From NCBI RefSeq assembly GCF_000303155.1, contig NC_018719.1, forward strand, positions 2,356,001-2,420,000: a stretch of 64,000 nucleotides of DNA. Direction: 5' to 3'. Each line of letters opens with the position of its first letter. Position 1 is the first letter of the stretch. The notes under the pieces were generated by a model that was not told the origin of the DNA, did not search any database, and worked only from the letters and a program-made list of their open reading frames with translations. The translations under genes were made by a program, and so were the position numbers. This DNA comes from Candidatus Nitrososphaera gargensis Ga9.2. Its GTDB lineage: Archaea; Thermoproteota; Nitrososphaeria; Nitrososphaerales; Nitrososphaeraceae. This document shows positions 4,781-62,890 of this stretch, piece by piece.

Positions 4781-5031
4781 GTTTTGGTCTTGAGCATTTC
4801 CAGCTTTTTGCTGTAGACGGCCTTTATATTGGCGTCGATGTCAAGGCTGTATTTCGTTGCTAGGTAGTAGAGCAGGGCCGCGGATTCTGTAATCTCTATC
4901 TTGGCGTGCTCGACATTGTTCTTTTCCATGGCAAACGCGATCTCGCCTATTTCCCTCACAAGATGAATGAAGGCTGCTGATCTGTTTTCGCCAAACTTTC
5001 TGTTATAGTATTCAACTGCAACAGAGCTCAT
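4777..5031 (-). CDS. MazG-like nucleotide pyrophosphohydrolase domain protein
   Basis: An 84-residue all-alpha protein resembling the MazG/dUTPase-like fold. HLVREIGEIAFAMEKNN gives the first ExxE-type helix, EITESAALLYYLATKYSLDI the second, and the C-terminal IKAVYSKKLEMLK resembles the family's final helix. Such proteins hydrolyse non-canonical or excess NTPs to NMP and pyrophosphate. The usual ExxExxE...EExxD metal ligands are only partly matched, so catalytic activity is uncertain. Its stop overlaps the ATG of the next gene, suggesting a two-gene transcript. Confidence 0.6.
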   Translation of the reverse strand: MSSVAVEYYNRKFGENRSAAFIHLVREIGEIAFAMEKNNVEHAKIEITESAALLYYLATKYSLDIDANIKAVYSKKLEMLKTKT

Positions 5032-5147
5032 ATTATTATCATGGTTGACGCGGCACCGGATATAAAAATTAGAGGTCCGGCATTATTACTGTATTACATG
5101 TTGTAGTCATCATGAAACTGATTTTTCACATTTAAACATAATAATAA

Positions 5148-5197
5148 GAAGGAGATGGGGATAGCAACTGTTGCTATCCTGCCATCCCCACCTTCTT
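5148..5197 (-). terminator. Long hairpin downstream of the 118-aa secreted protein gene
   Basis: GGATAGCAA (5159-5167) and TTGCTATCC (5171-5179) form a perfect nine-pair stem with a CTG loop. Outer arms GATGG/CCATC and GAAGG/CCTTC extend it with mismatches. In the direction of the 5212-5568 gene the hairpin follows the stop by about 15 bases and is followed by TTCTTATTATTATG, as expected for a terminator; an RNA-stability role is also possible. Confidence 0.6.
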
Positions 5198-5211
5198 CAT
5201 CTTTCATGCGG

Positions 5212-5568
5212 TTAGGGCAATAGGTTGCCGAATTGGATGTTCTGGTTTATGGTTGGAACATTGATCTGGACGTTTCCGTTTGCTCCATTCTGTGTGGCAC
5301 TTTGGCTTATGCTGCTTGATATTGACTGTATAAGGTTCGCGGAACCGGAGCCGGTGGCAACGGCTACTCCTGCTGCAATGTTGTTGCTAACTGCGACAGG
5401 GGTGTTCACCTGTACGTTAAGTTGGGTTGAGACTTGGACATTGTTGTTGATTGTGTCTTGCACTATAGAGCTTGGCGTGATAGCAAAGGCAGCTGGCACT
5501 ATTCCCATCACACCAAACGCGGCTACCATGCCTAACAACGAAGTCGATGTCAGGGTGTTTCTGATCAT
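5212..5568 (-). CDS. Secreted Q/N-rich repeat protein (curlin-like composition), 118 aa
   Basis: Residues 1-29 form a signal peptide: basic start, hydrophobic LLGMVAAFGVMGIVPAAF and AFA cleavage motif. The mature part is almost free of Lys, Arg, Cys and aromatics and is rich in Asn, Gln, Ser, Val and Ile with alternating polar/hydrophobic residues, for example DTINNNVQVSTQLNVQVNT and ISQSATQNGANGNVQINVP. That pattern resembles curlin or other beta-solenoid amyloid subunits. The protein is probably exported; amyloid formation is an inference. It is divergent from a second protein of the same type at 6053. A hairpin follows the stop. Confidence 0.75.
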   Translation of the reverse strand: MIRNTLTSTSLLGMVAAFGVMGIVPAAFAITPSSIVQDTINNNVQVSTQLNVQVNTPVAVSNNIAAGVAVATGSGSANLIQSISSSISQSATQNGANGNVQINVPTINQNIQFGNLLP

Positions 5569-6052
5569 GTCAAGGTGGTTGTAAAAACATTGGAAATAAG
5601 GGATACACCATTTTGTCTTTCGCTAAATCTTTTATTGTTGCTTTTAATTTTTTGATTTTGGCAAAAACTCATTGTAAATTTGCAATATCTTGTTGAATTG
5701 CAATAGAATGATTCCCCAAACCCGTCAAGGATGACTCTTGTCCCAAAAATGTACAGTTGTAATTCAAAATAATATCGGGTAACAAGTGCGTTCAAGCATT
5801 TGCAGAATAGTCATGAGGTGCTTATCAGTACTATGGGACGGTGTACACATTTAGGCATTCCCTTGTGGAGAACATGGCACACAAGTCTAATTAGTGAAAA
5901 ATGGAAAACAGACTAGTATCACTATGCCGATATCCATAAAGTTTCTGCTATTCCAGATTAACTGAGCTGAAAATCATGGTGCTAATTTTGTGTTTTATTA
6001 AAAGACAATAATTCTAATCCTTTAAAGACAATAATTTCACCACCCCTTCGAC
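5569..6052. other. AT-rich divergent intergenic region
   Basis: These 484 bases separate two divergent secreted-protein genes. They contain long A/T runs (for example around 5622-5660) and no open frame with coding character. A plausible TATA element for the 6053 gene is TTTTATTAAAAG near 5994-6005. Nothing else, such as an RNA fold or tandem repeat, was recognised. Confidence 0.5.
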
Positions 6053-6430
6053 ATGAGAACTCTACCTATCGGCCTAATGGCCGCAAGTCTTATGGTGGTC
6101 AGTGCAGCTGTTCCGGCATTTGCACTGAACCAGAGCACCATCATAAATAGCAACGACAATGTCAACCAAGGCAATGTCCAACTCTCAAAACAGTGGGCAA
6201 AGGCAACGACGACAACTAATCAAGGCGTCAACCGCCCACAAGCGTCAACAAACCAGCTTGCTGTTGGTTCTGTCCAAGTTGGCGTAACAAGTCAGGACAA
6301 CAGTCAGACCTCGACCTCAGGCAACTTCATAGGCCAGTCTTCCACACAAAGCGCAAACAACATTCACGTCTCATCGAGGACTACCACCACTTCGCAAACG
6401 GCCGTATGTGCAGTGTTTGCGGCCTGTTAA
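6053..6430 (+). CDS. Secreted Q/N/S/T-rich protein (curlin-like composition), 125 aa
   Basis: An N-terminal signal peptide (MRTLPIGLMAASLMVVSAAV, then PAFA) is followed by a mature chain of short polar repeats rich in Gln, Asn, Ser and Thr: NSNDNVNQGNVQLSKQW, QVGVTSQDNSQTSTSGNFIG, QSSTQSANNIHVSSR. It ends CAVFAAC, with two cysteines that could form a disulfide. Composition and length match the divergent 118-aa protein and the polar repeats of the 969-aa protein downstream, so the three probably belong to one extracellular structure. That grouping is inference. A T-rich terminator follows. Confidence 0.7.
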   Translation: MRTLPIGLMAASLMVVSAAVPAFALNQSTIINSNDNVNQGNVQLSKQWAKATTTTNQGVNRPQASTNQLAVGSVQVGVTSQDNSQTSTSGNFIGQSSTQSANNIHVSSRTTTTSQTAVCAVFAAC

Positions 6431-6448
6431 GCGCTGATGCCGACTAGC

Positions 6449-6474
6449 TCGGCCCTCTTTTTTCTTTTTGATAT
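6449..6474 (+). terminator. T-rich terminator
   Basis: CTCTTTTTTCTTTTTGATATTTTAT begins about 20 bases after the stop of the 125-aa secreted protein gene. It is a typical archaeal oligo-T termination tract without a strong stem. Confidence 0.5.
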
Positions 6475-6623
6475 TTTATAAAATTGCTATACAGTGATTA
6501 AAGTAGCCAGTTTTGATCAAGTCGTAGCAAAGGAAACTTGGAGCAAAAACGCGATCTGCTCAATAGAAGATTGCGTTAGAGCCATCAAGTTCAATGCAAA
6601 CCGCAGCTCTATTGATATCCTGT

Positions 6624-6890
6624 CTATATTCGGATCTGCATTTTCCCGATTACTTCGCCGATTTGATTGTACTTTCTAAGAAAACGCTGTCCTCTTTCAG
6701 TTATGTTGTATGTTTGCGTATATGCATCGTATTCTACCAGGCGCCTCTCTGTCAAGAGTGAAAGATAGTCTGTCGCCTGCACGTAGCTAAGGTAGACTCT
6801 GTGCATTATCTGTGGCTTGCTCAAACTGTTGTTAGCGATAGCTTCCAATATTTGACCTATTATATCTATTTGAGTTCTATACTGCATCAA
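6624..6890 (-). CDS. Winged-helix transcriptional regulator (HTH_45-like)
   Basis: An 88-residue single-domain DNA-binding protein. The order is helix 1 (TQIDIIGQILEAIA), the helix-turn-helix SKPQIMHRVYLSYVQATDYL, recognition helix and wing (LLTERRLVEYDAYTQTYNIT), then ERGQRFLRKYNQIGEVIGKM. This matches the archaeal winged-helix family that often begins with a 'RTQIDIIGQILEA' segment. It lies inside the surface-protein island, next to the AbrB-like gene on the same strand, so it is a candidate local regulator. An AATTCTAGA word lies about 55 bases upstream of its start. Confidence 0.8.
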   Translation of the reverse strand: MMQYRTQIDIIGQILEAIANNSLSKPQIMHRVYLSYVQATDYLSLLTERRLVEYDAYTQTYNITERGQRFLRKYNQIGEVIGKMQIRI

Positions 6891-6983
6891 CTAGAACACC
6901 ATTATAGAGTGTCTTTCAGTAAGCATATAGGTCTTTCTACGCCGAATTCTAGAAAATATTAGTATAACATCACCTAACTTAAG

Positions 6984-7262
6984 CTAGGGGATGACCCTAA
7001 TTTCCCATGCCCCTGCGATCAAATTTTCACGCTGGAGCTTCATGATCAGAGTGTTGGCCTTGGTGTGTTCAAACAAAGCGAAAATATCTCCCGGCTGCAC
7101 TGGAAAGAAATTCCGGATTTTCTTTGTTATCGTAAAGCGGTATTGTGAATCTATTGTGACAGTGTCCAAGACGTATAGCACGTCATGGGCATAGTAGTTA
7201 TTGGTAGTAGTATCCTGCAATAACGCATTATCAGGCTGATAAGGTGGTTTATTAAATCGCAA
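6984..7262 (-). CDS. AbrB/SpoVT-like transition-state regulator
   Basis: A 92-residue protein whose middle part reads as a swapped-hairpin AbrB domain: VTIDSQYRFTITKKIRNFFPVQPGDIFALFEH, matching the family pattern of a beta-strand, a short R-F-T-I/KKIR turn and a PGD turn. The N-terminal 30 residues are Asn/Tyr-rich. AbrB proteins dimerise and bind AT-rich operators. It is divergent from the 969-aa secreted protein and could control it; the shared intergenic DNA is AT-rich and contains the AATTCTAGA word. Confidence 0.65.
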   Translation of the reverse strand: MRFNKPPYQPDNALLQDTTTNNYYAHDVLYVLDTVTIDSQYRFTITKKIRNFFPVQPGDIFALFEHTKANTLIMKLQRENLIAGAWEIRVIP

Positions 7263-7427
7263 TACATAAGCGTCGTGTAGATTAAATTCTTTAAGCTTTC
7301 CCTGAATATTTCCTATATGCCCTTCTATAAGAAAAATTCAATCTAGATACTCGTAAATTTAACGAGCAGCCGATACGTCTAGAATTGTACAACATATTAT
7401 TTAAGCATATTATCACATTAGAATGTA

Positions 7428-7441
7428 ATAATTATATAAAC
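7428..7441 (+). promoter_or_regulatory. TATA-like element for the 969-aa secreted protein gene
   Basis: TAATTATATAAACC lies about 30 bases ahead of the TTG start at 7469, which is the position and composition expected of an archaeal TATA box serving a transcript with a short leader. Confidence 0.5.
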
Positions 7442-7468
7442 CAAAATTCTACTGTTTGAATTATTCTA

Positions 7469-10378
7469 TTGAATTCTAGAAACTTCATTTATCCTAAATG
7501 TGCATGCTTGTGTTCGGAATTGATATTGCCACAAAATTTTTCGGTAGTCGCAATTCTCTTAGCGATCGTTATTGTAGCTACAATATTCTCGCCGCTGTCC
7601 ATTGCCAGAGCGCTTGCTTCTGATGTTGGCAACAATGATATCAGGAGAACTAGCGGGAATTATATCATTAATTACGTCTATGAGATCGAAGTTGAAAAGC
7701 CCAAGCTGTCAGTAGACAAACCCAAGGTAGCACAGGGAGGCAGCATTACCATCAAGGGTACAAACTTTGCAAATTCGACAGTTAGCATACAGGCATTTGA
7801 TGAAAAGCTTTTGATTTTCAAGGAAAACGGCGACAAGCAAAATCAGACCGCTGGTTTGCTGCTCACACGATCCGATATAGCACTGGCTCAACCTGCAGTG
7901 GGCAAAGCCTCTGTGATGAAGAAATTCGCCCACGACAATAATAATTCCATACAAGATAGTAATGGAACAGTCACTCTGGTCATCAAAGCCCCCTCTGAAG
8001 GAGCGCAAAACTACTCTGCCGATCTTCAATGCAAAAGCATGCCCGGTTCCTCCATGCGCGAGGATCCTTTGATCATCTCACTTGGCAGCGGAACCGTAAA
8101 CGGCTCTTCAAGACAATTTGTAAACGCGTCTCTTCCTGCGGGCGACTACCAGAATTGCGAAATCGTTGTGACGTTACCAGAAACCGGCAAAACGTTCAGG
8201 TCAGAATCGTTCGACTTTGCCGTTGTTCCTGACGCATATGCAAAACCTGACGGCAAGGCAGTGGTTGCCGCCAGCAATGGCTCTTTTCAGTTGCGTGTGT
8301 CATTGCACAATAACATTCAACCCGGCAAGTATGTTTTCATGGCGGAGGAACAGCTAAAGGATGATGATGATGATAATAATGACGCAAAGCGCCAGCCAGC
8401 CAGAGCAATAGTTCCAATACAGGTAGTTGCCAAACAATACACGTCGACGACAACTACGCACACAAGCATCGAATCAATTCAAGAATCTATTGTAGAAGGT
8501 TCAGTTCAATCAAGCAACAGGTCTACCACTACTAGCACCGATATGACCAACAGCAACGACAATGTTTCCAATGATCACCAGGGGCCTGATAATAATGGCA
8601 ATAATGATAATAACGGCTCGGGGGGAGGTGGAGAGCAACCACCAACTACCACTTCTCCATCAGATGACGGGCCGAAAGAGGTCTGCACTACAGACGACTT
8701 CTCATTTGAATCCCCAAATGATGCCTCCCATACAAACACCATATTGCAGACATCTATCCAGACTGCAAACAACGCAATTATTAACGACGATGTCATCACC
8801 ATAACCCAGAGGATCATTGGCGCGACAAATGCGAGCCAGAATGTTATCATGAGTGTTGACATCAGAAATGATAACGAAGTCATGCAATCGATCAGGCAGA
8901 ACATAGTTCAAGAAGCAGAGATAGAACACTGCCAAACCGTTGGAGAAGTAGATGGCGATGGCGTTGATGGGAGCGGCGGGGTCAGAGCCACCAACACAAC
9001 AAACCTTGTCCTATCAGCCGCACTGCAAGAGGCGTACAACATATACTCTGACTCGGATGTAATCCAGATACAGCAAACCATCATAATTCCAAAGTATTGC
9101 AGCGCCAATGTCTATGCGCCTATCACAATGGATGACAGGAACAGAATCTCACAGTTGATAGATCAGGACATCGTCCAGAAAAGCAAAATCAAATTTACAA
9201 CTGATGGCAGCACGGCAGGCCAGGGAAGAAGCGCTGCAGACAATGCCGGGCAATATTCATATTTGCAGAAGAACTATATCACACAGCTCTCAATACAGGG
9301 CGCCAGTAACATAGCTCTTGACAACAACGTCATCAACATCAATCAGGCAATCATTGTCCCTGCTTCCTGTGAAGCAGATGTATATGCGCCGACAGTGGTA
9401 AGGAGCAGTAGCGACATACAGCTCTCGATAATCCAAAAAGCTGAACAGGTTTCAACCATACAACAGCTTGCAGGCCAGCAACCCGGCATAACAATCGCTA
9501 ACACAATAAGCACTGGCAACAACAGCAGCCAAGCAGTTGGCGGCAGCGTTTTCACAAATACAATTATCAATCATGCAGAGCAATACGGCGAAAACCTGTT
9601 CATAGATAACGATAACCTGCAAGTCGTTCAGCAGGTATTCTTTGTCAATGATACCACCGGCTGGACGCTTGATAATTATCAGGACAAGCTGGCGGAGGAA
9701 TTTGGCGATAGCGGCAATAACAGCGACAATAGCACCAGTAGTAGCAGCTTGATAGCCACTGGCAACCAGACATCTGATGCTCCTTTAGATGCGGCCGATG
9801 ACACTGGTGATAATAATAACGATACAGCATTGGCAGAGGAAGAAACAGAAACTGCAGACAATACTTCTTCTGGCAACGATACAGCTTCTTCAGCGGATAA
9901 TAACATTAGCAGCGATCCAACAGCAGCCACCACCTCAAATACAACCACCATAGTGCAGCAATCAGGCTTGCAAGATGCATCCAATTACAATCAGAACAAT
10001 AGCACTATCAACGTGAATCAGGACGCCGAAGGGTACCAGATTGATACTGCTGCATCAGTCCATGACACAAATGATGGAGAGCAGGCAAACGGGCAGGCGC
10101 AGGAACAGGACGCCGCAATTGCCAGCGACAGCGATATGCCGGCAGGCGACGACAATAGCACCTCAACCGTTGAAAATGGCATCGAGCAGACTGGCGTGCA
10201 ACTGGCAACTAATTATAGCGGAGAAAACAACGAAACGACAGTCGATCAGGGGGCGTTAGGGAATCAGGTTAACGCAGGCATTGAAGTAGCTAATGAAAAT
10301 AATCTCGCGCAGAGCGACGGGCAGGATCAAAGCCAAGAGGCCACGATTACTACTGGCGGCAATAGCACAAGTACATAG
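7469..10378 (+). CDS. Large secreted repeat protein with Q/N-rich beta-solenoid-like repeats
   Basis: The 969-residue product begins at TTG with a hydrophobic export segment near residues 25-50 (VVAILLAIVIVATIFSPLSI). Residues 75-290 look like beta-sandwich domains, starting with an IPT/Ig-like strand (KPKVAQGGSITIKGTNFANS). A low-complexity linker follows (NDNVSNDHQGPDNNGNNDNN). Then come about four diverged repeats of roughly 90 residues built on 'Q..I..A.N....D..I.I.Q.IIVP..C.A.VYAP'. An Asp/Asn/Thr-rich spacer leads to two clearer repeats of about 75 residues (QSGLQDASNYNQNNSTINV and QTGVQLATNYSGENNETTV). Many Asn-X-Ser/Thr sites suggest glycosylation. No enzymatic motif is seen; a structural surface or matrix role is inferred. 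Confidence 0.75.
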   Translation: MNSRNFIYPKCACLCSELILPQNFSVVAILLAIVIVATIFSPLSIARALASDVGNNDIRRTSGNYIINYVYEIEVEKPKLSVDKPKVAQGGSITIKGTNFANSTVSIQAFDEKLLIFKENGDKQNQTAGLLLTRSDIALAQPAVGKASVMKKFAHDNNNSIQDSNGTVTLVIKAPSEGAQNYSADLQCKSMPGSSMREDPLIISLGSGTVNGSSRQFVNASLPAGDYQNCEIVVTLPETGKTFRSESFDFAVVPDAYAKPDGKAVVAASNGSFQLRVSLHNNIQPGKYVFMAEEQLKDDDDDNNDAKRQPARAIVPIQVVAKQYTSTTTTHTSIESIQESIVEGSVQSSNRSTTTSTDMTNSNDNVSNDHQGPDNNGNNDNNGSGGGGEQPPTTTSPSDDGPKEVCTTDDFSFESPNDASHTNTILQTSIQTANNAIINDDVITITQRIIGATNASQNVIMSVDIRNDNEVMQSIRQNIVQEAEIEHCQTVGEVDGDGVDGSGGVRATNTTNLVLSAALQEAYNIYSDSDVIQIQQTIIIPKYCSANVYAPITMDDRNRISQLIDQDIVQKSKIKFTTDGSTAGQGRSAADNAGQYSYLQKNYITQLSIQGASNIALDNNVININQAIIVPASCEADVYAPTVVRSSSDIQLSIIQKAEQVSTIQQLAGQQPGITIANTISTGNNSSQAVGGSVFTNTIINHAEQYGENLFIDNDNLQVVQQVFFVNDTTGWTLDNYQDKLAEEFGDSGNNSDNSTSSSSLIATGNQTSDAPLDAADDTGDNNNDTALAEEETETADNTSSGNDTASSADNNISSDPTAATTSNTTTIVQQSGLQDASNYNQNNSTINVNQDAEGYQIDTAASVHDTNDGEQANGQAQEQDAAIASDSDMPAGDDNSTSTVENGIEQTGVQLATNYSGENNETTVDQGALGNQVNAGIEVANENNLAQSDGQDQSQEATITTGGNSTST
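9948..10356 (+). repeat. Two tandem protein-level repeats near the C-terminus of the 969-aa protein
   Basis: Two units, approximately 9948-10135 and 10180-10356, align at protein level: 'QQSGLQDASNYNQNNSTI' with 'EQTGVQLATNYSGENNET', then 'VNQDAEGYQIDTAASV' with 'VDQGALGNQVNAGIEV', and both end in Gln/Asp-rich runs. DNA identity is limited, so the duplication is old or was maintained by selection on the protein. Confidence 0.6.
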
Positions 10379-10390
10379 GCGGCTAGAGAA

Positions 10391-10422
10391 GGTGCAAGAG
10401 ATGACCTTTTTCTCATCTTGCC
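10391..10422 (+). terminator. Imperfect stem-loop after the 969-aa gene
   Basis: GCAAGAGATGA and TCATCTTGC form an imperfect stem around a CCTTTTTC loop, about 15 bases past the stop. It separates the secreted gene from the glycosyltransferase starting at 10504. Confidence 0.45.
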
Positions 10423-10503
10423 TCTTACTTCAGAAATTAGTTCTATTAGAAAGAAGTGATATTGGAAATAAATCAATATCGTATATAGAGTAGGCGGTCA
10501 AAC

Positions 10504-11754
10504 GTGAGGGTTTTGATGGTATCAGGAGAATATCCGCCGATGAAAGGCGGGGTTAGTAGATATACTCACAGTCTTGTTCAAGCACTTGCCAAAAAAGTGG
10601 AGGTGGCTGTAGCTACGAATATAGCTGTTAACAACAAGGTAGCACAAAAAGGAGATATTGACGACAATTTCAAAGATGGCAACAATACAACAACAATCTA
10701 TCCGCTAATCCGAAAAGGTGACAAAGAAAATTCTGATCGCTTGCTTGAACTAGCCTTTAGACTGAAGCCAGATATTATCAATATCCAATACGAACGCGGG
10801 TTATACGAAATAGATACACCATTTCACATGATACAAAACACGTTATTTGGAACAACTCTTGACAAATTTTATCGAGCATCTCCATTCCCTACGGTAACCA
10901 CGATTCATACGGTATATCCGTACAAGGAATATCACAAGTACATACGCCAAAGAGCTGAAAGAAAGGCGGGCAAACTCCGCTTTCTTCCACTACCATTACG
11001 TGCAGCGATAAGAAGCCAGATAATGGAACAACGATACAGGCTGCTATTGAAAATCGTCCAATTATCTGGCGGAATAATCAGCCCGGCAAGGACAATTCAC
11101 GATATAGTTGGACGAGGGACAGTGATTTATCACGGGGCAGAGCCTGCCATTCTCACCAACGCTGATTATTTTCCGCTTTCCAGCATGAAAAGGGAAGAGT
11201 TCAGAAAAGAGTTTGGATTGCCTGCAAAAGAGATGCTCTTACTTGCGTTTGGATATGCAGGATTCTACAAGGGCTTTGACATACTAGACAATTTGGTTCT
11301 TCCAAAGGATTGGAAGCTAGTGATAAAGCAGGATCGACATGAACGAGGTAATGAGCATCCCATGCAAGTTAAAAATGCGATTAACCTAAACCTTGGGTAT
11401 TTAGACGACAGGATCCTTTCAATGCTCTTTTTTGCCTGTAACGCCATAATATTTCCATACAAGCTGGTTTCCATTTCTGGCGTGATGTTTGACGCTTTGG
11501 CGCATGGCCTGCCCTTTGTAGCAAGCGAGCTTGAGTTTTTTAAAGAATTTGCTGACATGGGATTAGGCATAGTATGCAAAAGGGATGCTAAATCCTTTAG
11601 CGACGCAATTCATTATCTTGATGAAAACTATTCTCAGTACAGAAGAAGCATTGAGCAGTTTGGTCCCAAACTTCAATGGAGAAATATCGCCGATCGTCAC
11701 ATAGAGGTTTACTCGAAGAATATCTCTAAGCGTTCAGCCACTCTTTCAACTTAG
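10504..11754 (+). CDS. GT4-type glycosyltransferase
   Basis: A 416-residue GT-B fold enzyme expected to transfer a nucleotide-activated sugar in surface-glycan assembly. The N-terminal Rossmann half starts MRVLMVSGEYPPMKGGVSRY, the glycine loop typical of GT4. The C-terminal half has LLLAFGYAGFYKGFDILDNL, IIFPYKLVSISGVMFDALAH and GLPFVASELEFFKEF, which corresponds to the donor-binding region. The usual E-x7-E is only partly matched (S-G-V-M-F-D-A-L-A). The start is GTG 10504. Codon use is noticeably richer in A/T than in the chaperone or histidine genes. It pairs with a second GT4 gene 250 bases downstream. Confidence 0.85.
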   Translation: MRVLMVSGEYPPMKGGVSRYTHSLVQALAKKVEVAVATNIAVNNKVAQKGDIDDNFKDGNNTTTIYPLIRKGDKENSDRLLELAFRLKPDIINIQYERGLYEIDTPFHMIQNTLFGTTLDKFYRASPFPTVTTIHTVYPYKEYHKYIRQRAERKAGKLRFLPLPLRAAIRSQIMEQRYRLLLKIVQLSGGIISPARTIHDIVGRGTVIYHGAEPAILTNADYFPLSSMKREEFRKEFGLPAKEMLLLAFGYAGFYKGFDILDNLVLPKDWKLVIKQDRHERGNEHPMQVKNAINLNLGYLDDRILSMLFFACNAIIFPYKLVSISGVMFDALAHGLPFVASELEFFKEFADMGLGIVCKRDAKSFSDAIHYLDENYSQYRRSIEQFGPKLQWRNIADRHIEVYSKNISKRSATLST

Positions 11755-12000
11755 CTTTTATGATCAATTCATACATTTTTGCAAAGACGACAAGAAAGCC
11801 GATTGTTGATGATGTAATTTTGGTTGTCTCGCCATGATAACCATAAAGTTGCAAAGCAGCAAAGCGTTGAAGAAAACTTGTGAATAGAGCGCTCAGAATT
11901 TAAGCAGGTATCTAAAATATTTAAAAGAAAGCAGTAACAACCAAACTGGCTAATCCGCCAGATCTCTTATTATGTTTGGATTATTTCGGATAGCGAACAA

Positions 12001-13158
12001 TTGAACATTGGAGTAGTTCATCATAGTCTTGATGGCAAAGGCGGAAGTGGCAGGCTTGCAATCAATACTATAGAGCTTCTCAAGGACATGGGTTTCTACG
12101 TTATCCTCATCATCTGCCAAAGACCTAACTTGGAGAAACTAAAGACAACATACAATAAAGATATTCATGTCGACAGGATAAAAGCGTTGTTTCCGGCACA
12201 GATAAGAGCATTTGGCATTTACCAACGTATGCTTACACTTATTCCAGCGGCCTTAACAAACGTGGATCTTCTTATCAGCACACACGGAGATTTGCTTCCC
12301 TACCATATTACGAATAGATGTCCGTTGATATCATACTGCCATTATCCCACCATAGCCTTATCGATGGACGGAGGAGCTTCTAGATACACGAATTCGTTGC
12401 TGTGGCGATCTTATTTTGCTCCTTATGAGCGAATGACAAGATATCTGAGCAAACCAGCCCATGTCAGAGGAAGAGTGCTCACGAACTCGAAATTTAGCAA
12501 AAACGCAATAACACGTCTGTATCCAGATATTGAGCCAACAATAGTTTATCCAAGTGCAGATACCAAGTCGTTCAAGAAAGCATTGATGTCAGACAAAAGA
12601 GAGGACAAGATTCTGGTCCTATGCAGATTCACGCCCGAAAAGTCAATTGAAAACGCTTTGATCTTAGCCAAGAAACTGCATACCAAAACAACAATAATAG
12701 GCAGTCTGATTCCGTCAAATCGTTATTACTTTGACCATCTAGTTCAGATGTCAAGATCTTTGGGTATTGAAGACTTGATTGAGTTTAAGCCAAATGCTAG
12801 TTTCAATGCAATCATAGAGGAGATGTTCAAATCAAAAGTGTACTTGCATACAATGCGTGGAGAACATTTTGGAATCTCAATAGTCGAGGCAATGTCTGCA
12901 GGTTTGATTCCTGTTGTTCCAGACTATGGCGGGTGCGCTGAAATTGTTCCAGAGGAATATCAGTATGACGGAATTGACACTGCTTATGCGACAATTCAAT
13001 CTGCACTTGATGCATCGTTCTCAGACCGTAAGCGGGTAAGCGATATCGCGGATTTGTTTTCAGACAATACCTTTAAGATGAGCATGAAAAAAATTGTTGA
13101 GCAAGAATTGGGAGTAAGGCCTTCAGAGAGATTGAGGCATACGGCGACTGAAGCATAG
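12001..13158 (+). CDS. GT4-type glycosyltransferase, ALG11-like
   Basis: A 385-residue GT-B enzyme. The N-terminus MNIGVVHHSLDGKGGSGRLA carries the acceptor-side glycine loop. The C-terminal donor site is textbook: KILVLCRFTPEKSIENALIL, then GEHFGISIVEAMSAGLIPVV with the E-x7-E pair, then GGCAEIV. The GEHFGIS variant and general layout resemble eukaryotic ALG11 mannosyltransferases, suggesting a mannose-like donor in N-glycan or polysaccharide synthesis. The start is TTG 12001. The 246 bases between the two GT genes hold a short reverse open frame without a usable start, probably noise. Like its partner it is A/T-rich. Confidence 0.87.
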   Translation: MNIGVVHHSLDGKGGSGRLAINTIELLKDMGFYVILIICQRPNLEKLKTTYNKDIHVDRIKALFPAQIRAFGIYQRMLTLIPAALTNVDLLISTHGDLLPYHITNRCPLISYCHYPTIALSMDGGASRYTNSLLWRSYFAPYERMTRYLSKPAHVRGRVLTNSKFSKNAITRLYPDIEPTIVYPSADTKSFKKALMSDKREDKILVLCRFTPEKSIENALILAKKLHTKTTIIGSLIPSNRYYFDHLVQMSRSLGIEDLIEFKPNASFNAIIEEMFKSKVYLHTMRGEHFGISIVEAMSAGLIPVVPDYGGCAEIVPEEYQYDGIDTAYATIQSALDASFSDRKRVSDIADLFSDNTFKMSMKKIVEQELGVRPSERLRHTATEA

Positions 13159-13560
13159 CCTCTAAAGATAAGAGTTGCAACACAAGAACTGCAACAAGTG
13201 AAATGATGGAGGTTTGGTCTGGTCAAACCAAAATTTCCTTAAGACTCTAATCGGCCTCTTCTTGTGCTACCAAGTAGCAACCTAGCTGTTATTCTTAATG
13301 AAAGGTATATGATTTTGAAAAAATTATGGAGTATCCAACGCTGGCACAGATCCCTCAACCAGGGCAAATAGCCAAGGAACAGACTGTCTTATCATATCCT
13401 CTTCTCACATCTTGAATACATCATCACGTTCGGTATTCTATCCAATACTCACGCTTTATTCCGTTAAACGAGTTGTTTATCTTTGAAAGAACTACGGTTC
13501 AGATTGTCAAGATGAAATGGTTTTCAGGCTAAACTTTATGAAGATTTATTAGTAAAAAGG
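13159..13560. other. Non-coding stretch between GT gene and tRNA-Leu
   Basis: Four hundred bases with stops in all frames. A 29-codon forward frame from ATG 13325 has no recognisable features. No RNA fold, inverted repeat or copy of the tRNA-Leu 3' end was found that would mark an integration site. Confidence 0.5.
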
Positions 13561-13683
13561 TGCGGGGGGTGGGATTTGAACCCACGAATCCCTAAGGAAT
13601 GAGGTGTCCCAGTCAGACTGCAACATCTGAGCATCGTGTCAGAATTTGATCTCACGCCGTTGACCGGGCTTGGCGACCCCCGC
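13561..13683 (-). tRNA. tRNA-Leu (reads best as CAA) with intron
   Basis: On the reverse strand the acceptor GCGGGGG pairs with CCCCCGC, with discriminator A. The T-arm is GTGGG-TTCAAAT-CCCAC and the variable arm is long (TTCCTTAGGGATTC), as in class II tRNAs. The anticodon region reads GTGAG-ATCAAA, giving CAA for leucine, followed by about 40 extra bases before CTCAT closes the stem; this is an intron at or next to position 37/38. Position 26 appears absent or shared in this fold, so exact splice sites need mapping. Confidence 0.88.
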
Positions 13684-58640: not shown

Positions 58641-59384
58641 ATGGCACCCGAGCCCAAAAAGGATGATGCTCAGAAAGGCGGCTATAGCCCGGACATGAAG
58701 ACTGTCGGATTAGCAATACTGGCGATGGGAATATCCCTTCTTCTGGTTATTATCGCGTGGATGGCGATTGGAGTTGATCCAGACTATTCAGCAGAGGTAA
58801 TGCAGGAGCAGCAGGCCAGCTTGAGGGAACAGTACGGATTGCCACCAGAGGAAACGCTCACCGCTGCACAGCTTGAAACTCCTCCTTCATTGCGTGGTTT
58901 GGAAAATGCGACGGACAATGCAACTTCTTTAGCAACTTCTTCCAACGCTACTGGCAGCAACCAGACTACTACTATAGTAGGAAACCAGACGGCAGCAGGC
59001 AATGCAACAGGCATCGGCAATCAAACTTCTGCTGCGCCAGGCAACCAGACGAACCAGACGGCCGCCACTGGCAACGCTACCGCGGCTGCGCCAGCCGGCG
59101 GTACTGCTGCAGTATCCATAGTGCAAGGCGCGTCGAGCAAAACAAATGATGCATACAATCCAAATCCTGCTCAGATCAGTGCAGGCAGCGCCGTGACTTG
59201 GACCAATGATGATTCCGTCCCGCACACGGCAACATCAGGGCAGAATGCAACGCCGGATGGCACCTTTGACTCTGGCATTCTGCAGCAGGGTGCGAGCTTT
59301 AGCTTCACATTTGAAGAAGCAGGCGAATACCCCTACTTTTGCACCCTCCACCCAAATATGGTTGGAACGGTTAGCGTGAGCTGA
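58641..59384 (+). CDS. Membrane-anchored plastocyanin-like cupredoxin
   Basis: A 247-residue protein with a signal anchor (about residues 20-45, VGLAILAMGISLLLVIIAWM), an extracellular stalk dense in Asn-X-Thr sites (GNQTTTIVGNQTAAGNATGI, GNQTNQTAATGNATAAAP) and a C-terminal cupredoxin. Copper ligands are complete: His in VTWTNDDSVPHTATSGQ, then Cys, His and Met in YPYFCTLHPNMVGTVSVS. It is expected to carry electrons outside the membrane in a copper-based ammonia-oxidation respiratory chain. The stalk may be N-glycosylated. Confidence 0.9.
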   Translation: MAPEPKKDDAQKGGYSPDMKTVGLAILAMGISLLLVIIAWMAIGVDPDYSAEVMQEQQASLREQYGLPPEETLTAAQLETPPSLRGLENATDNATSLATSSNATGSNQTTTIVGNQTAAGNATGIGNQTSAAPGNQTNQTAATGNATAAAPAGGTAAVSIVQGASSKTNDAYNPNPAQISAGSAVTWTNDDSVPHTATSGQNATPDGTFDSGILQQGASFSFTFEEAGEYPYFCTLHPNMVGTVSVS

Positions 59385-60415: not shown

Positions 60416-62890
60416 CTACTTTGCAGCAACAACAACCATAATGTCCGAGCCCTCTGTCCACGCCATGTAGACGTTGCCGTCTGCTGCAACCTTGGGCCAA
60501 GAGCCCTCGTCGTCGCCTACTACGCTTGCCACTTCAAATGTTTCCCCTCCGTCAGAGCTTGACGCAAGTAATACCTTGCCGTCCTGCACCCATGCCACGT
60601 AGACGCCGGCGCCTGATGCGGCCACATGGGACGAAGCGCCGTTGCCAATCTCCAGGGCATCGCCAAAGCTGGCGCTACCGTTGCTCCGGGCAATCGTTAC
60701 CGTGTTATTATTTGTAACGCCTGCGATGTAGACCGCATCGGCTGACGCGGCCATCGTCTGTATCGTCATTTCCGGCAACATCTCAGCTGTTTCAAAATTG
60801 GTGCCGTCAGAGCTTGAGGCAAAAACGTTCACGCCTTCCCCTCTTCCTTCAGTGGCGTTGCCCGACAGTTGTTGTTGCCATGCCAGGTACAGGGCGCTGT
60901 CAGAGCTGGTCATCGCGGGATTGGTGGCGTTGCTGCCGACAACTGCCGCCTCAAACTCAACTCCATCAGAGCTGCGGGCAAGCATGAGGTCGCCGGCAGA
61001 CCCTTCTACTGCGCCTGCAGCAACCCATAGCACATAGATATTGCCCTTGAATATTGCTACATGTGGATCCGAGTTTTCGCCGGTATAGTTGCCACCAAGT
61101 ATCAACGTATCACCAAAGGTCTTGCCGCTGTCATTGCTTGATCTGAGTGCTATCGCTGACTGGTTCTGAGAGTTATAGTCGGCCCACACAACGTAGACAC
61201 TGTTGCCCGAGACTACAATGTCTGGCACAAGCGAGGACCCGCCCTGCTCTGACCTGCCTATGGCGACTGGCTCGCTGAATGTCGCGCCGGAGTCGCTGCT
61301 CTTTGCAAACATGATTTCATGATGGCCAGAAGTATCGTCCTGCCACACCACATAGACATCGCTGCCTTGCACCGCCATGTCGGCGCGCTCGGACCTGCCG
61401 GCGTTGCCGCTCACGTTCATGGGAGTGGTGCTGGCTTCTTCAGTTTCGTTGGCGTTGTTATTGTGAGACAGGGTGACGCTGCCTTGCACGCCAGTCGGCA
61501 GGTGCGTCACGACAAAGGTGTAGTTGCCAGTCTCGTTGAAGATAGCTCTTGCTTCTTCACCGGGTATAAAGAGCGTAAAGATCGGCCTTGTGCCAAAGCT
61601 CATAGCGTATTTTTTAATTGTCTGATCGTCAGGGTCATTGAGCGCTATGGTTATGTTTTCTCCTGCAAGCCCTCCCTCCAGCATACCATCCACGCGCATG
61701 GTGCCGGTGTTATTGTCCTCTGTCGCTGAGAGGTTGACAAATTTGGGAGTTGCAAATTTGATAGGATGCGTGATCTCGGCTCTTGCCGTGCCTTTGTCGT
61801 ACTCGTACGTCACAACTATTCTGTAGTCGCCCTCGCCTGTTTCTCTTGATGCGAAAAAGCCCTGCTGCTCGGGGTAGCTAAAGCTGTCCTGCAGCGTGCC
61901 ATCTGGTGCATAGATGCTGACCAGTATTTCATCATAGCTCTCCACCTTGTTCTTCAGCTGCACGCTGACCTGCACCCATCCATAGATGTACGTCGAGTTG
62001 TGCGCCTTAAGCGTCATTTCCGGCTCGGCTGCAGTCCCGGTTTCGCCGGGCGGGATGAGCGGCACCTGCTTTGGCCTTTCCGGCACGACCAGCCCATAGC
62101 TTGCGGTAACGTTCGAGTCCGCCGGCACTAGCCGCGGCCTATTCTTGCTTCCGTCCTCCCACTGCATGAACACGATGTCATTCTTCTTTGAGTTGCCACA
62201 GTCGTTACAGTCTGCAGGGTAGACGAAATAGAGCTTGTCTTCAAGCCCGCTTACCGTAAAGCCCCGCTCGTCCGCATAGCCTGTCTTTATGATGTTGCCG
62301 TTGATGTCATAGACTGCCGTGAACATGCCGACTCCGTCGTCAGTGAACTTTTCGCTCCAGCCTTCAGACTGGATCCTCTTTGCGCGGATCGTTATGCTGT
62401 GGCTCTTGTCCGCCGGCTTGGTGGCACTGTCATCATCATTTTCAAGCTCGATGTGGTGGTTGATAGTGGTGCGGTAATTCTCCAAGTTTATCGTGACTGG
62501 CTGGTAGATTATTGTATTGTTGCGGTAGACCGGCTTGTTTATCACTACAGTATTGTTTGCAATAACGGTGCCGGTGTTGTTATTCTGCTGTTGTTGTTGT
62601 GGCTGCTGGCCGCTGGCATTTTCAGCTATGGTAGTAGTGCTGCTGTCGCTGTCCGATTCGTTCCGTCTGTCTATGGTAGTCAAGACTGGCTCGGGGCCGG
62701 CATCCTCCTGCTGCCTTGGCATGGCAGAATATGCCGCAAATCCTCCTATGGCTGCGACGACCACAATAATTACCGCGACGGCAGCTCCTTTTTTCCTGCT
62801 CACCGCAAACCAGACGCCGGCTCGATATTTACGAGATATCGAGTTCCAATAAAGAAAATATGTCTTTGCTCTAGAAGAAATTTCTCGCAT
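60416..62890 (-). CDS. Large exported protein with BNR/Asp-box-like propeller repeats
   Basis: An 824-residue surface protein. An N-terminal membrane anchor (about residues 35-55, GAAVAVIIVVVAAIGGFAAY) is followed by a Gln/Asn-rich stalk, beta-sandwich domains (ILVSIYAPDGTLQDSFSYPE; GNYTFVVTHLPTGVQGSVTL), and a C-terminal set of six or so repeats of about 50 residues: 'VYVVWQD..G...I.FA.SSDSGATF.EPV', with S-x-D-x-G-x-T/E-F Asp-boxes as in BNR/sialidase propellers. No sialidase catalytic residues are evident, so binding rather than hydrolysis is likely. A later start near residue 27 is also possible. Confidence 0.75.
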   Translation of the reverse strand: MREISSRAKTYFLYWNSISRKYRAGVWFAVSRKKGAAVAVIIVVVAAIGGFAAYSAMPRQQEDAGPEPVLTTIDRRNESDSDSSTTTIAENASGQQPQQQQQNNNTGTVIANNTVVINKPVYRNNTIIYQPVTINLENYRTTINHHIELENDDDSATKPADKSHSITIRAKRIQSEGWSEKFTDDGVGMFTAVYDINGNIIKTGYADERGFTVSGLEDKLYFVYPADCNDCGNSKKNDIVFMQWEDGSKNRPRLVPADSNVTASYGLVVPERPKQVPLIPPGETGTAAEPEMTLKAHNSTYIYGWVQVSVQLKNKVESYDEILVSIYAPDGTLQDSFSYPEQQGFFASRETGEGDYRIVVTYEYDKGTARAEITHPIKFATPKFVNLSATEDNNTGTMRVDGMLEGGLAGENITIALNDPDDQTIKKYAMSFGTRPIFTLFIPGEEARAIFNETGNYTFVVTHLPTGVQGSVTLSHNNNANETEEASTTPMNVSGNAGRSERADMAVQGSDVYVVWQDDTSGHHEIMFAKSSDSGATFSEPVAIGRSEQGGSSLVPDIVVSGNSVYVVWADYNSQNQSAIALRSSNDSGKTFGDTLILGGNYTGENSDPHVAIFKGNIYVLWVAAGAVEGSAGDLMLARSSDGVEFEAAVVGSNATNPAMTSSDSALYLAWQQQLSGNATEGRGEGVNVFASSSDGTNFETAEMLPEMTIQTMAASADAVYIAGVTNNNTVTIARSNGSASFGDALEIGNGASSHVAASGAGVYVAWVQDGKVLLASSSDGGETFEVASVVGDDEGSWPKVAADGNVYMAWTEGSDIMVVVAAK

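Follow-up and report, generated by a model that had tools for sequence, protein, structure and literature searches.

Do three secreted proteins rich in glutamine and asparagine (Q/N-rich), encoded within 5.2 kb of an archaeal genome, belong to one extracellular assembly system, and which known system would it resemble? The locus lies in a 64,000-nucleotide stretch (the window; NC_018719.1, positions 2,356,001 to 2,420,000) of Candidatus Nitrososphaera gargensis Ga9.2, whose genome is a single contig of 2,833,868 bases (coded G000 in our comparisons). A preliminary description, made from the sequence, had likened its genes to bacterial curli, with two small fibre subunits, one large nucleator or anchor and two local regulators. 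We find that a 13-residue motif with regularly spaced glutamines is common to the large protein and to the small secreted proteins encoded beside its homologues in two related genomes, which suggests that such proteins assemble together on the cell surface. In our judgement the odds are about even that the cluster represents a rare module for assembly at the cell surface or in the extracellular matrix, composed of an anchor and matching subunits. Should this proposed assembly take place, ammonia-oxidising archaea would have an extracellular fibre or coat system with a repeat chemistry of its own; little is understood of how these organisms, important for the nitrogen cycle, attach and aggregate.

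A motif common to large and small secreted proteins

The three secreted proteins (lengths in amino acids, aa) and the parts of the largest one are listed below, in window coordinates.

5212-5568, minus strand: 118-aa secreted Q/N/S/V-rich protein, apparently an orphan; open reading frame (ORF) with a signal peptide to about residue 29 (...PAAFA)
6053-6430, plus strand: 125-aa secreted Q/N/S/T-rich protein, probable small subunit; ORF with a signal peptide to residue 24
7469-10378, plus strand: 969-aa secreted multidomain protein with a TTG start; ORF with homologues L002 (954 aa) and L003 (764 aa)
7619-8458, plus strand: N-terminal region of the 969-aa protein, residues 51-330, with a conserved SGNYIINYxYEIE segment (SGxYIINYxYEIE in its looser form) and two conserved Cys, and enriched in sequons
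8729-9667, plus strand: repeats R1 (8729-8932), R2 (8993-9202), R3 (9257-9475) and half repeat R4 (9518-9667), spaced by about 88 aa
9941-10375, plus strand: Q-rich C-terminal tail, residues 825-969, with two small-protein-type repeats (QANGQAQEQDAAI and QSDGQDQSQEATI), recognised by similarity to a 350-aa protein of genome G041 and by motif counts

All three exported genes were confirmed at these positions, each product beginning with a hydrophobic segment that ends in Ala-x-Ala; the signal peptides were called by eye from sequence alone. The mature proteins contain 28% (118-aa), 26% (125-aa) and about 18% (969-aa) Q+N. Among the window's 58 predicted genes, with a median of 6%, the 125-aa protein ranks first and the 969-aa protein second.

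Comparisons with 70 genomes of the family Nitrososphaeraceae and 397 genomes across the phylum place homologues of the large protein, besides the source genome, in G002 (954 aa) and G041 (764 aa) only. Accordingly, the 969 family is missing from 67 of the 70 family genomes, including the complete genome G042; a scan of genome collections returned the G002 contig alone (Nitrososphaeraceae archaeon Centralia_MAG_167), and no relatives were found on viral contigs or plasmids. Profiles of the small and of the large proteins match the same three of the 397 genomes. In both G041 and G002, the large gene is preceded immediately upstream by a divergent gene, on the other strand, for a small secreted Q/N/S/T repeat protein: one of 350 aa with three repeats (G041_350) and a counterpart of at least 101 aa truncated by a contig end (G002_101). 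These two share 61% identity over 97 residues, and no other family genome contains a match to them. Conservation of the neighbourhood holds in part: small and large genes are neighbours in all three genomes having the large gene, but the 118-aa gene is without relatives.

The motif, Qx3Qx3Qx[AS]xI, occurs four times in the 969-aa protein (in two core repeats and both tail repeats), twice in each large homologue, twice in G041_350 and once in G002_101, with a shuffling expectation of at most 0.007 per protein. A six-frame check of nine loci (about 160,000 residues) finds it nowhere outside the system's large and small proteins; because the motif was derived from these very sequences, this count is a specificity check and not an independent test. 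Moreover, a glutamine spacing of four exceeds chance in the 969-aa repeats (p=0.001). The repeats had been described as alternating polar and hydrophobic residues; the lag-2 signal of such alternation is not above shuffles (z of 1.8 and 0.5, and of -1.4 to 0.4 in parts of the 969-aa protein), so strict two-residue alternation was dropped, and the actual pattern is a glutamine at every fourth residue.

Pairwise similarities were assessed with shuffles preserving odd/even composition, giving per-pair p-values uncorrected for the number of pairs. By this measure, the 969-aa tail resembles G041_350 (p=0.0007-0.0013), the 125-aa protein resembles repeat 1 of G041_350 (p=0.0007), and the similarity between the 118-aa and 125-aa proteins is marginal (p=0.003). 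Further, a small-protein profile scores 76.6 bits on the 969-aa protein, as compared to a maximum of 56.7 in 600 shuffles. The only two Cys of the 125-aa protein lie within its last seven residues, and this C-terminal pair is common to G041_350 and to a second small protein of G002 (143 aa, G002_143). Overall, the 125-aa protein probably belongs to the relatives' family of small secreted repeat proteins.

Architecture of the large protein

The 969-aa protein begins with a signal or anchor (residues 1-50) and contains an acidic linker at residues 736-824 and a polar one at 331-405, as had been noted. Its diverged repeats, described earlier as about 90 residues long, were recovered as about 88-aa units in 3.5 copies (region 406-735; first residues 421, 509 and 597 for the full copies and 684 for the half copy), with the consensus TNxILQxSIQxAxNxxxDxxVITIxQxIIxPxSCxAxVxAPVxVNNxNxIxQSIxQxIxQxAxI for this protein and one homologue. 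Cys 188, 230, 406, 488, 544 and 634 are matched in both homologues, those from 406 onward lying in the repeat part, as expected of an exported disulphide-bonded protein. N-glycosylation sequons are in excess both in the whole protein (30, versus 18.1 +- 3.6 expected) and in the N-terminal region (8, versus 3.1 expected); the excess comes mostly from this region and from the second linker, the repeats showing none.

The beta-sandwich domains proposed for this protein are plausible only, given a weak immunoglobulin (Ig)-like GxPGS match in one homologue and strands in a low-confidence model. In particular, AlphaFold2 returned beta-rich strands at low confidence, with a predicted local distance difference test (pLDDT) score of 36.8 for 699 aa and 49.1 for one repeat. 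A known enzymatic domain, which would have spoken for another role, was looked for, and Pfam, NCBIfam and PDB sequence searches were empty or at chance level; a known-domain or enzyme identity was therefore dropped. Separately, an 841-aa Ig-like surface protein (G002:C31:28897-29871; L013:151-2676) weakly matches the N-terminal region (E=6e-10).

Such an architecture could also belong to a stand-alone adhesin or a glycoprotein associated with the surface layer (S-layer), its repeats forming an ordinary beta-rich stalk, with the small proteins separate, similar in composition and not co-assembling; we regard this as a serious possibility, though on the doubtful side. In its size, Ig-like N-terminus, polar linkers and sequons, and in having glycosyltransferase genes close by, the large protein recalls large archaeal adhesins; adhesion proteins of some 1000-3000 aa are induced in biofilms of N. 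viennensis and N. maritimus (PMC12448741). The window's two small genes are, moreover, weakly or not related to the small genes of the relatives. However, the large protein shares the motif and tail repeats specifically with the small proteins, and a small gene always adjoins the large one.

Proposed assembly and its weak points

For an anchor with matching subunits, the following sequence of events may be envisaged. All secreted proteins would be exported by Sec, and the large protein, N-glycosylated and stabilised by disulphides, would remain on the S-layer surface as a stalk or adhesin. Its repeats, with their ladder of glutamines (Q-ladder), could then act as a docking and seeding surface for the small protein (the 125-aa protein, perhaps the 118-aa protein too), which might stack by like-with-like beta pairing into a fibrous or film-like coat aiding cell aggregation or attachment; the AbrB-type and winged-helix proteins would probably control expression. 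A bolder version, in which this is an undescribed archaeal self-assembling surface-fibre system built on a Gln-every-fourth beta repeat instead of curlin repeats, with a large glycosylated anchor that seeds polymerisation of the small secreted subunits and a possible link to flotation via gas vesicles, is unlikely.

Several observations weigh against an assembly module. Assembly and surface anchoring are themselves inferred, the 969-aa protein has no recognisable C-terminal anchor, and the structure models are too low in confidence to decide the fold (pLDDT of 37 and 49). The 125-aa protein is without the strict motif and has only the relaxed form QGNVQLSKQWAKA (p=0.014). The small-protein profile was built from the neighbours of the large genes together with the 125-aa protein, so its hits are partly by construction; when trained without the 125-aa protein, it barely parts that protein from shuffles. 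Relatives of the 118-aa protein number none at E<=1e-3 in the 70 family genomes, and the 397 phylum genomes gave only weak matches. Separately, a role for both regulators as conserved parts is not supported: only an AbrB relative recurs, in one of the two relatives.

The weak phylum matches of the 118-aa protein that were inspected are unrelated genes (e.g. a tryptophan-synthase-like one), so its role as a conserved subunit was dropped; on these comparisons, it is an orphan.

The low pLDDT throughout, the Q/N/S/T-rich composition and the few charged residues of the small proteins would also suit disordered, low-complexity matrix or spacer polypeptides that form no ordered assembly, the shared neighbourhood and composition being coincidental. 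We consider this highly improbable, as a position-specific motif, repeat conservation across genera and conserved Cys are not expected of a free spacer. The anchor-and-subunit proposal is directly testable because the motif is common to its parts and the set of carrier genomes is small, and the match with gas vesicles described below offers a lead on the purpose of a coat.

Regulators and the intergenic region

The elements between the secreted-protein genes are as follows.

5569-6052, strand not applicable: divergent intergenic region of 484 bp between the 118-aa and 125-aa genes
6439-6453, plus strand: hairpin and T-run, terminator-like, 3' of the 125-aa gene; overall not above the shuffle rate
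6624-6890, minus strand: 88-aa winged-helix DNA-binding protein (HTH_45 / Sso10a family), from Pfam and NCBIfam models
6984-7262, minus strand: 92-aa AbrB/SpoVT-type regulator, from TIGR01439, under its curated cut-off

The winged-helix regulator was borne out, matching both HTH_45 (E=3.7e-18, 65.8 bits, cut-off 25.5) and the Sso10a family (E=2.1e-18, 66.1 bits, cut-off 60); no ortholog was seen in the relatives' loci, where the best match has 27% identity only. The assignment of the AbrB-like protein is less secure. Its match to TIGR01439 (E=0.0094, 15.7 bits) is under the cut-off of 28.3 and indicates a family resemblance only, but in G002 the second small gene, encoding the similar G002_143, is followed by a convergent AbrB relative that is 49-53% identical to the window's protein. 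The window has its 125-aa and AbrB genes in this order too, except that the winged-helix gene lies between them.

Upstream of the 125-aa gene, a 13-nt direct repeat, AAAGACAATAATT, at 6001-6013 and 6024-6036 is a possible, weak candidate for a regulator site. The window contains no further exact copies, and matches with up to two mismatches are at chance level; an operator motif was dropped, as two exact copies were found and the rest were not above chance.

Coincidence with gas vesicle genes

A search with PF00741 found gas vesicle (gvp) genes in six of the 70 family genomes. The positives among the 37 good ones are G000, G002 and G041, exactly the carriers of the large protein; such a coincidence has a chance of 1 in 7,770 on the assumption of independent genomes, which does not hold. 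In G041, a second gvp cluster with gvpA/J-, gvpK- and gvpF/L-type genes (C15, L014:13872-17792) comes after the large gene. One paper names Candidatus Nitrososphaera gargensis Ga9.2 as the sole thaumarchaeote encoding gas vesicles among those sequenced by 2013 (PMC3835317).

One explanation links the module to flotation, as a coat or surfactant film with which cells with gas vesicles would hold together or sit at an air-water interface. The exact coincidence among the good genomes and the adjacency in G041 both speak for it; however, it depends on three genomes only, two of one genus and possibly with warm habitats in common, three less complete gvp-positive genomes (66-85%) are without the large gene, and the source genome's gvp cluster (G000:C1:1717338-1718539; L062) is about 0.64 Mb from the window, with no Q-repeat large or small proteins beside it. 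We consider a flotation film quite unlikely, and the coincidence is a lead, not a mechanism. Two of the carrier genomes presumably come from heated habitats (the Garga spring and the Centralia soils).

Near the other gvp cluster of G041, at a distance of about 3 kb, is the gene for a 419-aa secreted Q-rich protein (L064:4408-5667, minus strand); the protein seemed related at first, but its repeat is of a different, QIAxQVAxxNGG type, and it was dropped as a relative.

Composition and neighbouring genes

Downstream of the cluster are two further genes.

10504-11754 and 12001-13158, plus strand: GT4-type glycosyltransferase genes (Pfam Glyco_transf_4 / Glycos_transf_1), by association only

Glycosyltransferase or polysaccharide-deacetylase genes adjoin the cluster in two of the three genomes. 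Codon usage is atypical in the cluster genes and the glycosyltransferase at 10504 (about -0.09 to 0.03 per codon, versus a window median of 0.11), and the G+C of the roughly 5-13 kb stretch (5000-13300) is below that of its flanks; either recent acquisition or relaxed selection would fit these values. The stretch of cluster and glycosyltransferase genes is bordered by a tRNA gene with an intron (13561-13683). Composition and tRNA are suggestive of a mobile island, but no flanking repeats were found around it, and integrases were not searched for; this origin was not retained.

Elsewhere in the window, the tRNA genes at 13561-13683 and 1379-1480 (123 and 102 bases) are found by Rfam and not by ARAGORN with bacterial settings, consistent with introns. 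N/Q/T linkers are also plentiful in two other secreted proteins, of which the large one (60416-62890, minus strand) contains repeated 'VYVVW...SSDSG' segments and the other (58641-59384, plus strand) is cupredoxin-like and has a relative near the G041 locus.

Comparison with known systems

BAP/Esp-type biofilm proteins are likewise large surface proteins with Ig-like and repeat regions, thought to build a matrix (PMC7101364, PMC4915627); Pfam and NCBIfam scans show no sequence relationship to them, and the present cluster has separate small secreted partners. The large adhesion proteins of ammonia-oxidising archaea (e.g. the NVIE_000940-001020 region) are similarly secreted, multidomain surface proteins of S-layer-bearing cells and are linked to attachment (PMC12448741), but the 969 family has its restricted occurrence, being missing from 67 of 70 family genomes.

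The statement that no archaeal system of this make-up is known was too strong for amyloid in general, as the Methanospirillum sheath protein is an amyloid-like extracellular archaeal polymer (PMC6242892, PMC10593813). The sheath proteins of Methanospirillum and Methanosaeta (SH, MspA) offer an archaeal parallel, being secreted, beta-rich and forming an extracellular polymer (PMC6242892, PMC10593813); they differ in that a single sheath protein is used, which has a cap domain and lacks a Q-ladder, the sequences having been compared only via the lack of PDB matches. One archaeal protein has been described as containing curli-like repeats (PMC3521004). For the cluster itself, amyloid is neither supported nor excluded by the present evidence, and a true cross-beta amyloid as the assembled state seems improbable.

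Membership in curli is ruled out by sequence, in keeping with the preliminary view that curli genes were not recognisable. The 118-, 125- and 969-aa proteins contain no curlin QxGxxN repeats (five each in CsgA and CsgB), and a hidden Markov model search with PF07012 (Curlin_rpt) found nothing above cut-off in the 70 family genomes, with a positive E. coli control. Curli export genes (CsgG/E/F) were not recognised among the translated neighbouring genes, no genome-wide family search having been run; archaea of this group are without the outer membrane that CsgG spans. The proposed subunit and nucleator logic is supported: the large protein has its repeat in common with the small proteins of the relatives; the 125-aa protein carries the relaxed motif only. 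Overall, the likeness to curli lies in a small secreted Q/N-rich repeat protein with a partner bearing the same repeat, in divergent genes and in a local transcription factor; in contrast, the glutamine spacing of four is missing or at chance in CsgA and CsgB, and the partner here is a 969-aa protein with Ig-like and Cys-containing parts.

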